Shown piece after piece: positions 7,743-10,359 of a stretch of DNA of 64,000 nucleotides (position 1 is its first letter; each line of letters begins with the position of its first letter). Source of the stretch: Bacteroidales bacterium (GTDB taxonomy: Bacteria > Bacteroidota > Bacteroidia > Bacteroidales > UBA932). The notes under the pieces are model-generated. The model searched no databases, was not told where the DNA came from, and was given only the letters and a program-made list of their open reading frames with translations. The stretch lies in NCBI GenBank assembly GCA_024401745.1, contig JAKSKK010000007.1, positions 1 to 64,000 on the forward strand. The letters are read 5' to 3'. The translations under genes and the position numbers were made by a program.

Positions 7743-7777
7743 GCGCTCTCTGAATACCATTCTCCCTTAATCCACAG

Positions 7778-7806
7778 AAGCGCCCCTGTCCTTCCGGGGC
7801 GCTTTT
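7778..7806. terminator. Second hairpin terminator, reads both ways
   Basis: Perfect 9-bp stem AAGCGCCCC (7778-7786) with GGGGCGCTT (7796-7804) and T-rich right flank. It sits at the outer left edge of the RAYT element and would back up the first terminator. Confidence 0.65.
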
Positions 7807-7810
7807 GGTA

Positions 7811-8156
7811 TCCTAGGGCCTTCTTGGCCTGCCTTCGGCGGCACTTTCCGAAAAAACCACCGATTCCCGGGCTCTGTGAAAACCACCTTCCGAAATATGC
7901 TTGGATTGTCGGACAGGTTTGGCGATATTGCTTGTTTCACCCTGTCCACGCGTCCTATTTTCATAGTTTTCGGCAAGATACCCTTACTTCCTCGGAAGGT
8001 AAGGCCTAAAAACCTCCACCTTCCGGGAATGTGGCCTCTTCTCGCGGATATTCATGAAAATTGTCTGTCGAAAACCTTCTCCGAGGCCTTTCAAAACCCA
8101 ATTTCTCACTTTCCATCCGACAAACCGTCCTTTTCTCGTCAAGTACTTTTTCAACA
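7811..8156 (+). repeat. Left arm of the long inverted repeat
   Basis: Its reverse complement aligns with 9964-10264. The inner 56 bases match at 52 positions, including a run of 20 identical bases at the inner tip; the rest is about three-quarters identical, with the left arm some 45 bp longer through an extra segment near 7895-7950. Both arms contain an 8-bp hairpin, here CGGAAGGT (7993-8000) with ACCTTCCG (8018-8025), around a loop of 17 bases. Confidence 0.85.
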
Positions 8157-8357
8157 GATAGAGTTAACGCTATTTCTTGTATTCGTTCGCGGAAGTTCTT
8201 CAGTACGATCCTCGTCACGTGAGTTCTTTATTTTCCCAATCAACAGATGGTAACTGAGTTGTTGTTCTGGATTAGTCATGTATGGTATTGGAGAAATTTT
8301 CCTAATTTTCTTTGGGGTAAATCATTTAAGTGATCTTGCAGAAATAGTCTGCATAGC

Positions 8358-8382
8358 GGAGGCCAGCGCCCCAAGAGGCGGG
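8358..8382 (+). repeat. Inner REP-like repeat, left copy
   Basis: Twenty-five bases that occur exactly, inverted, at 9804-9828. The core AGGCCAGCGCCCC (8360-8372) is a version of the AGGCCAGCCCC motif next to the transposase start. GGAGGCC (8358-8364) can also pair with GGCCTCC (8382-8388), giving a local hairpin, as REP sequences do. Confidence 0.8.
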
Positions 8383-8509
8383 GCCTCCCGCGGTTCATGG
8401 AATCATGCTATTCCGTTGGCAAACCCTCCTCACGTTCCCAGACGCTTGCGGGTATCAAGCAGCCCACTCATCCCAGTTCCATTGTGCTGGCCGCTACCCT
8501 AACTCGCTG

Positions 8510-9418
8510 TCATCTAAGCAATTCCTTCAGTATCTCGTACCGTATGTGAACAATCCGGGCAATCTGTTTCGTCGAAGTGCGCACCTGCCTTTTCAGCTCC
8601 TTGCCGAGGCGCTGCCGCTGCAAAACCGATAGGTCAGAGATGCGGTCACGATTGAACATCTGCATGGAAAGTGCAACCGCCTTTTCCCGGATTTCGTTGT
8701 CGGGCAGCGAGATATAGTCCTCCTCAATTTCAAGGTTCACCTTTTCTTCCACCTTCTGGCTCAGCTCGAACATAAACTGCCAGACATTCCTGAATGCGCG
8801 CTCTGCCCTCTGGTACTGGGTATAGTTTCCTGGCCAGATTATTCCATCCGGCATCACCAGCCAGTTGTCTGGAATCTGCTCGCGTGTGAAGAAGGCGAGC
8901 CGTTGCTGATTGCCAGTCATCTCTTTTGCAAAATGGCTGGCATTCAGCACGAAAGACTTGTCAGAAAAGAGCAGTCCGCCCGAACTCCAGCGATAGGTTA
9001 TGGGAGTGAACGGCTGCCCGGCGGCCATGGGATTCCGGAGAACGTATACTATCTTTTCAATAAGATGCTCCTGGTCTGGTATCAGCCAGATGCCGATTTC
9101 CCAGTTTTTGCCAGGCAGGCCTTCTTCTGGGTGCTTAGCCAGCCACATCTCAGTCAGCTTTTTGTAGAGTTGCATGAAGCTCATGCAGTCTTCCTCAGTA
9201 CCGTGAAGAATGAAGTGTAAGTGATTGTCCATCAAGCAGAAAGCAATGATTAGGACAGGGCTCTTCCTCTGCATTTTCAGGTAGCAGACTGCAATCCTGT
9301 TCATGCCCGCGATAAATGCTTTTTCGCTGCCGAACAGAAGATCGTTCGGTAAGCCCTTCGTCGCACAATGGAAGTAGTGTGGCTTTTGATTGGCGTTAGG
9401 TTCTATATTGTTTTTCAT
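8510..9418 (-). CDS. REP-associated tyrosine transposase (RAYT, Y1/HUH family)
   Basis: A 302-residue single-strand DNA nicking enzyme of the TnpA-REP (IS200/IS605-like) group. The HUH motif is His66-Leu-His68 in LMDNHLHFILH, and the catalytic Tyr is most likely Tyr125 in KIVYVLRNP, where the Asn-Pro after the Tyr is characteristic of RAYTs. The early YFHCATKGL and the middle CLMDNH segments also match the family. Known RAYTs cut and rejoin REP palindromes, usually domesticated as single copies. The frame is intact. The ATG lies just inside the 9430-9503 inverted repeat, which could fold in the mRNA leader. The C-terminal 130 residues are poorly conserved and probably hold DNA-binding helices. 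Confidence 0.85.
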   Translation of the reverse strand: MKNNIEPNANQKPHYFHCATKGLPNDLLFGSEKAFIAGMNRIAVCYLKMQRKSPVLIIAFCLMDNHLHFILHGTEEDCMSFMQLYKKLTEMWLAKHPEEGLPGKNWEIGIWLIPDQEHLIEKIVYVLRNPMAAGQPFTPITYRWSSGGLLFSDKSFVLNASHFAKEMTGNQQRLAFFTREQIPDNWLVMPDGIIWPGNYTQYQRAERAFRNVWQFMFELSQKVEEKVNLEIEEDYISLPDNEIREKAVALSMQMFNRDRISDLSVLQRQRLGKELKRQVRTSTKQIARIVHIRYEILKELLR

Positions 9419-9429
9419 AATTTTCGGAA

Positions 9430-9503
9430 GGGGCTGACCTAATAAACTTAATACTATGAAATTGAAATTGGTATGAAAGCGAGAGGAGTCAAAGGCCAGC
9501 CCC
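9430..9503. repeat. REP-like inverted pair in front of the transposase
   Basis: GGGGCTGACCT (9430-9440) and AGGCCAGCCCC (9493-9503) are complementary at 10 of 11 positions and surround 52 bases of AT-rich sequence. The motif is the same core found in the outer REP-like copies at 8360-8372 and 9814-9826. It begins 11 bp upstream of the transposase ATG, so it may double as a translation-controlling hairpin. Confidence 0.7.
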
Positions 9504-9803
9504 GATATAGTTTAAGTTTGGTAGCCGCAAGTTAGATCATTGGCGGAATCCCTGCAAGAAAACATCAGAAACATTGGTCACAAATTCATGTATTAGATGT
9601 TTAGTTTATGTTTTTTATGTTATTGCTACCGAGAAATTTGCGATATTTCTAAGACTGATGGTCTTCAGTGCCAGAGTCTGTTGCTGGATATATGTTCCAA
9701 ACGAACGATTTGTGTGGGCCGAATGTTCAGCTAGGGCTTGGTGGAATAATCCGGTCGGCCGAAGCCGGCAATCGGCAAGGGGCCCGTGAGGAGGGCCGGG
9801 TGG

Positions 9804-9828
9804 CCCGCCTCTTGGGGCGCTGGCCTCC
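9804..9828 (-). repeat. Inner REP-like repeat, right copy
   Basis: Exact inverted copy of 8358-8382. Preceding sequence (GGAGGGCC near 9790) can pair with GGCCTCC at the right edge, so this copy can also form its own hairpin. Confidence 0.8.
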
Positions 9829-9963
9829 CCGCTTTACCAGCACCATCAGGAATAATGACTTTAGCCACAAAGATATGATTGATAATTTTGGGGAATACAG
9901 TTTTGACTAAGATTATTCAGCCGAACAAACTCCGGATAAGGGGGAATTGGTTCCAGATAATCT

Positions 9964-10264
9964 TGTTGAAAAAGTACTTGACGGGAAAAGGGCGTTTTGT
10001 CGGATAGAAAGTGAGAAATTGGGTTTGAGAAGGGTAAAATAAGGGATGTCGAAGACCAATTTTAAAGAAAATCAGCGGGAAAAGGCCTCTTTCCCGGAAG
10101 GTGGAGGGTTTTTGGTCTTACCTTCCGAGGAAGTAGGGTTTTTTCGCCGAAAATCGTCAATATAGGATGGGAAAAGAGGATGTAAGAGGCAATTTTGAGA
10201 ATTCTGTCCGAGAATCGGTAGTTATTTCGGAAAGTGACCCAGAAGGAGCCCCAAAGGGCCCTAG
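9964..10264 (-). repeat. Right arm of the long inverted repeat
   Basis: Inverted partner of 7811-8156. It keeps the same 8-bp hairpin (CGGAAGGT 10095-10102, ACCTTCCG 10120-10127) and the CCTAGGGCC-like outer end. Positions 10141-10155 repeat exactly at 204-218 at the start of the window. The arm ends just before the yebC operon terminator. Confidence 0.85.
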
Positions 10265-10270
10265 AATAAC

Positions 10271-10299
10271 AAAAGAGCCCGCCAGAAGCGGGCTCTTTT
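10271..10299 (-). terminator. Strong terminator of the yebC operon
   Basis: Perfect 12-bp stem AAAAGAGCCCGC (10271-10282) with GCGGGCTCTTTT (10288-10299), loop of five bases, and A/T tails on both sides, so it can work in either direction. It lies about 60 bp after the yebC stop. Confidence 0.85.
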
Positions 10300-10359
10300 A
10301 GTATCAGAGAAACTCTGAAAGCCAGAAGGAAACCTCCCGGGGGAACACCCCAGCAGGAA

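Follow-up and report, generated by a model that had tools for sequence, protein, structure and literature searches.

A 2013 account described TIRtrons or TIRYTs with 'long TIRs' (PMC3733652); in these, long terminal inverted repeats (TIRs) lie on both sides of a RAYT-like transposase. Some TIRs contain self-complementary tracts, GGGGWSAS is common to some of them and not universal, and of three such genes in Koribacter a single one has repeats belonging to a dispersed family (PMC3733652). TnpAREP subclass 2.6, which is RAYT group 5 of Bertels, comes mostly from Bacteroidetes; as described in 2018, it has atypical flanking structures, the key motifs WQ and YIH[QN]NP and a median length of 179 amino acids (PMC6006769). 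Here we analysed a window of 64,000 nucleotides (positions 1 to 64,000, forward strand, of contig JAKSKK010000007.1) from a Bacteroidales bacterium, whose genome assembly (GCA_024401745.1) comprises 1.99 Mb in 63 contigs and is 71.6% complete. At 7811-10264 of the window, a predicted RAYT-type transposase gene is framed by two nested pairs of inverted repeats, and the unit is probably a TIRtron or REPtron.

The predicted transposase gene and its nested repeats

The features of the unit are as follows.

7811-8156, plus strand: left outer arm, apparently non-coding, of which 7884-8156 aligns to the right arm
7842-7912, plus strand: direct repeat inside the left arm, with copies at 7842-7870 and 7884-7912 that each align to 10208-10236
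7994-8024, plus strand: hairpin core of the left arm, GGAAGGT-N17-ACCTTCC, a genus-wide pattern
8358-8391, plus strand: left inner palindrome, like a repetitive extragenic palindrome (REP), stem GGAGGCC/GGCCTCC
8510-9418, minus strand: predicted RAYT-type HUH/Y1 transposase gene, 302 amino acids, motifs NHLH and YVLRNP
9795-9828, minus strand: right inner palindrome, also REP-like and inverted relative to the left one, with a single mismatch in the stem
9964-10264, minus strand: right outer arm, inverted counterpart of the left arm (BLAST and inverted-repeat scan of the 64 kb)
10096-10126, minus strand: hairpin core of the right arm, GGAAGGT-N17-ACCTTCC, the same genus-wide pattern

An intact Y1/HUH gene between inverted arms, as claimed in an earlier note on this DNA, was confirmed by the list of open reading frames (ORFs) of the window and by BLAST, which aligned 7884-8156 with 9964-10236 at 77.1% identity over 275 columns (E 1.7e-53). 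Residues N65-H66, H68 and Y125, which make up the HUH motif and the single catalytic tyrosine, were invariant across 37 homologues, as was the R of YVLRNP, and the predicted protein appears to adopt the TnpAREP fold. The product is a predicted RAYT-type transposase, predicted to cut single-stranded DNA. Some of the homologues carry source names, which are Bacteroidales metagenome-assembled genomes (P0059, P0102) and one Spirochaetales metagenome-assembled genome (P0078). The gene is single copy, and its nearest paralogue in its own genome (L033) has 56% identity.

The inner ends of the arms agree at 52 of 56 bases (8101-8156), exactly as had been noted before, and at 59 of 63 (8094-8156). An additional outer piece (7797-7836 / 10242-10280) matches at 80% of 40 columns and lies partly within the flanking terminator-like hairpins. 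The direct repeat, which was absent from the earlier note, makes the left arm longer than the right. Both arms keep TTCC-T-CGGAAGGT...ACCTTCCG-GGAA, a 12-bp stem with one bulge, so that the reported hairpin CGGAAGGT/ACCTTCCG is indeed present in each; no GT[AG]G was seen by eye directly at the hairpin foot. In DNA folding, all 100 shuffles were less stable than the left arm (z -2.6), and 93 of 100 were less stable than the right arm (z -1.6). The scan of the 64 kb gave 11 inverted repeats, of which the top four (I1-I4) are pairs of this unit; the other seven are 34-41 nt long, 71-77% identical and spaced 2.5 to 42 kb apart. By sequence the arms look non-coding. A coding reading was rejected on mismatches of 21/19/18 over the three phases and a stop in every frame of at least one arm, one frame being open throughout the left arm and closed in the right. 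Three Rfam matches at E up to 1, all far under gathering scores, were deemed chance, the best being a plant microRNA family on the right arm (28.6 bits against a gathering score of 44).

The inner pair, also absent from the earlier note, is nested within the arms and itself palindromic, with 88% ungapped identity and 94% over 33 columns by BLAST, and its copies sit 118 bases past the RAYT stop and 376 before the start. About 30 extra bases at the left inner repeat (8392-8423), missing in the right copy, hold a small GGAAT...ATTCC inverted repeat.

In anatomy, a RAYT gene with inverted hairpin repeats, the unit is closest to TIRtrons and subclass 2.6. Like a TIRtron, and in agreement with the definition, it places a RAYT-like HUH/Y1 gene between long inverted repeats that bear no relation to GTAG REPs. 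Unlike some published TIRs, it is devoid of GGGGWSAS (all 10 matches in the window lie outside 7811-10264), and it adds the second inverted palindrome pair inside its arms. As in subclass 2.6, the gene is flanked by inverted atypical hairpins without a GT[AG]G tag, and in the window's relatives the flank repeats have copies elsewhere in the genome. Unlike that subclass, the window protein has WE (our own reading of the alignment), YVLRNP and 302 amino acids, and copies elsewhere were not found in its own, 71.6% complete, genome, bar one weak candidate (L109). Because the key motif and the dispersed own-genome copies both fail, the unit was not filed in subclass 2.6. The statement of the earlier note that RAYTs lack long terminal arms is not supported, given TIRtrons with long TIRs (PMC3733652) and the atypically flanked subclass 2.6 (PMC6006769).

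Differences from more distant systems are larger. Unlike the E. coli TnpAREP REPtron (PDB 4ER8), the unit is without GTAG-tagged REPs of 20-40 bp, and its protein carries about 150 additional residues at the C-terminal end. For this C-terminal part, a DnaA-like helix-turn-helix reading, which would match the DnaA-like or helix-turn-helix domain of RAYT subclass 2.1.2, is unproven. Elements of the IS200/IS605 type occur in several near-identical copies, frequently with a tnpB partner; unlike these, the unit encodes a longer protein, shows no further gene-sized ORF between its arms in the ORF list, has long inverted arms rather than short subterminal hairpins, and exists in one copy only. A literature search with poor coverage of subscription papers turned up no account of RAYTs with long arms from this group.

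RAYT genes, flanking repeats and hairpins in the genus

RAYT matches were found in 33 of the 61 genomes searched, often several per genome and four in the window's own, with 32 of 37 genomes of the genus (own included) having them, as against 1 among the 24 that belong to other families of the order. Up to 1500 bases on each side of every RAYT gene were compared; 10 of 75 loci with less than 1000 bases on one side were dropped (6 of 49 in a smaller comparison), and L003 was excluded as a duplicate of the window. Inverted upstream and downstream flanks of at least 40 bits were found at 25 of 65 loci versus 29 of 4160 mismatched flank pairs. The window arms are the longest (275 columns), followed by 158, 152, 150 and 142 columns, and many flanks fold as hairpins of about 70-160 nt, some resembling two inverted REPs.

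Genome-private dispersed repeats accompany RAYTs in the genus, since 12 flank repeats queried against their 12 genomes (12 of about 20 then known, from loci chosen for clear flank repeats) had all listed matches (E of at most 1e-4) within their own genome's segment. With overlaps merged by hand, the repeats occupied 16 places in G004, 10 in G019, 9 each in G012 and G021, 6 in G003, 5 each in G036 and G033 and 4 each in G001 and G008; G034, G023 and G015 had just the two flanking copies each. A check of 18 matched copies, with those beside the RAYTs among them, placed several under long open frames, and these frames may be chance. The supposition that the RAYT mobilises or maintains a larger structured repeat is supported in part: in related genomes of the genus, repeats beside RAYT genes reach about 160 bp against 20-40 bp for classical REPs and are dispersed genome-specifically. 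It is not supported that this RAYT maintains the arm of about 300 bp as a repeat family, with no own-genome copy bar the weak L109 and none in 199 other genomes of the genus (best three candidates each).

Two side observations concern these relatives. By eye, an ACCCC...GGGGT-like core with differing outer stems is frequent in flank hairpins of RAYTs from the window gene's wider clade (L005, L125, L133, L144, L150 and others), which looks like a constant core combined with stems that vary by lineage. RAYT matches at G036:C10:20842-21657 and G257:C18:58506-59336 lie inside open frames of 728 and 587 amino acids and are possible fusions or chance.

The hairpin core of the arms recurs beyond the window. 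GGAAGGT-N6..24-ACCTTCC gave 39 matches in 19 genomes versus 15 for the reversed pattern, which is likewise a hairpin of equal composition, and the spacer, counted by hand, was 17-18 bases in 30 of the 39. With that spacer, picked after the 19-genome search and with those genomes counted again, 400 genomes of the genus gave 449 matches versus 49 reversed, and at least two copies were present in 49 genomes versus 5; control counts are also high in some genomes (60 against 15 in G098, 8 against 8 in G382). Many matches are paired at 75 or 52 bases, like REP doublets, and several singletons within long open frames are probably chance. At least two hairpins were present in 16 of 37 genomes with window-type RAYTs versus 33 of 363 others (Fisher p 5e-7, a test that ignores kinship and rests on a RAYT search scoring at most five candidates per genome). 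The hairpin, with exact stems, lies within 1.5 kb of a RAYT at 4 of 75 loci (the window, L140, L141 and L143), a count that has no separate control; the hairpins at L141 are tandem and have a stem identical to that of the window arms, and a GGAAGGT hairpin also stands beside a distant RAYT at L157.

Two arrays may be mentioned here. At L141 (G196:C20), hairpin arrays of 52-base period flank the RAYT on both sides, near an apparent tRNA gene (our own reading). At L063 (G123:C194, 765-1110), seven tandem GGAAGGT hairpins of 52-53-base period precede a dnaK-like gene (our own reading), about 390-730 bases downstream of an F420-ligase family gene in another species; the array is unique among 12 ligase loci with at least 1.4 kb downstream, and it may be coincidence because G123 has 59 such hairpins.

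Genomic setting and search for further copies

On one side of the unit lies an F420-ligase family gene and on the other a yebC-type gene; the two host genes are convergent, and a terminator-like hairpin of each stands immediately outside the unit.

7775-7807, plus strand: terminator-like hairpin of the F420-ligase family gene, a host feature
10266-10304, minus strand: terminator-like hairpin of the yebC-type gene, a host feature

No yebC match was found in the flanks of 14 other ligase loci (one with only 46 bases downstream), no match to the unit in plasmids, and no match to the exact inner-arm pattern in the genome-contig and viral-contig collections. Relatives sought by peptide patterns in the genome-contig collection gave none confirmed. 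The best three candidates per genome yielded no arm in the 199 other genomes of the genus; the single listed match, in G074, falls within a long open frame that we read as a phosphate-transporter-like subunit, and it was deemed chance. Flank pieces of the other three own-genome RAYTs matched only themselves and one weak 36-base stretch, and the lack of dispersal is not special to the window RAYT because these are about as undispersed. One of the three, L035 (G000:C41, 25% identity), adjoins a GGCTAGGTC...GACCTAGCC hairpin, and a weak copy of this flank hairpin was seen at L114 (G000:C2:7359-7394, E 0.03).

Explanations of the unit and their meaning

By analogy with established TnpAREP behaviour and from the predicted fold, the enzyme of the probable TIRtron or REPtron would cut and rejoin single-stranded DNA at the hairpins of its flanking repeats. 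Its likely target is the hairpin carried by its arms, and the inner palindrome may be a second one. Replication would expose the arm hairpins as single strands, two inverted copies would keep gene and substrate together, and related enzymes would have scattered solo repeat copies within their own genomes. The arm pair would be an orphan because its repeat either never amplified in its own genome or decayed. As the source describes Koribacter, such an undispersed pair has precedent, because repeats there disperse for only one gene in three.

Several results weigh against this reading. The protein scores 34.8 bits with NF047646 against a curated cut-off of 80 and 19.4 with PF01797 against 23, a model reached at E 0.01 by 19 of the 37 homologues. 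Inverted flanks at 40 bits are missing at 40 of 65 RAYT loci, those of the paralogue L033 score 23 bits, under that threshold, and at L050, one of the 25 flanked loci, we read the flanks as protein-coding. Solo arms were not found in the own genome by BLAST (9 of 9 candidates scored), and a covariance model (7 of 7 scored) gave only the weak half-arm L109 (G000:C4), which scored 42.6 bits where the highest of 30 shuffles gave 36.3 and the reversed arms 33.1 over 533 kb; the covariance model E was 0.16, and this control is lenient because the model had preselected L109 from 1.99 Mb. The inner palindrome (25 bases, at most 3 mismatches) occurs nowhere else in the own genome (control 0). When the mismatch positions are shuffled, about 0.7% of trials attain 59 of 63 (p 0.007 for a 63-base window), and this patchy conservation is suggestive only, because p is 0.03, 0.08 and 0.17 for windows of 56, 79 and 30 bases. 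In a tree of 35 of the 75 RAYTs, three GGAAGGT-flanked RAYTs fall outside the window RAYT's clade, which forces at least three changes; a single origin of such RAYTs is unsupported, as they are not one clade, and homology of the hairpin loops is unsupported too, these being no more similar than shuffles. The earlier note would have abandoned its idea had the arms occurred nowhere else and without RAYT genes in relatives; no clear solo arms were found, yet the relatives do show the association of RAYTs with arms.

The inner palindromes could instead be the real substrate and the outer arms an old, unused inverted duplication. The inner pair is shorter, more alike and nearer the gene, as are REPs around many RAYTs of the genus; the stem and spacing of the arm hairpin, however, recur genus-wide and beside other RAYTs, and the inner palindrome has no other own-genome copy, which leaves this account unlikely. 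The central position of the gene, with inverted ends on both sides that reach as far as the host terminators, would also suit an autonomous transposon of 2.45 kb moving as a whole by long terminal inverted repeats. We consider this still less probable, as the unit is single copy in its own genome, no empty site was found at the 14 other ligase loci, the best three candidates in each of 199 other genomes of the genus included no arm, and plasmids did not yield the unit. That the arms are unrelated regulatory regions of the neighbouring genes, similar by coincidence, is scarcely credible: both do flank convergent genes and carry hairpins, but the true terminator-like hairpins lie just outside, and the arm homology excludes chance and refutes it.

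Beyond the reading of the unit as a probable TIRtron or REPtron, it is possible, and we propose it tentatively, that an undescribed Y-x-x-R-N-P group of RAYTs of about 300 amino acids radiated in one Bacteroidales genus and rewrote its substrate in each lineage, giving species-private families of 70-160-bp hairpin repeats. The window would then hold the largest such unit, in which one substrate pair (the palindrome) is nested inside another (the long arm), captured either ahead of the rise of its repeat population or after its loss.

The co-evolution of a domesticated transposase with its short repeats appears to have been studied mainly in gamma-proteobacteria. In this genus, with its hundreds of species, a genome often has several RAYTs, the genome-private repeats are unusually long, and the RAYT protein is long, divergent and near or under the Pfam and NCBIfam cut-offs. 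It would permit a direct test of enzyme-repeat specificity over many natural pairs.
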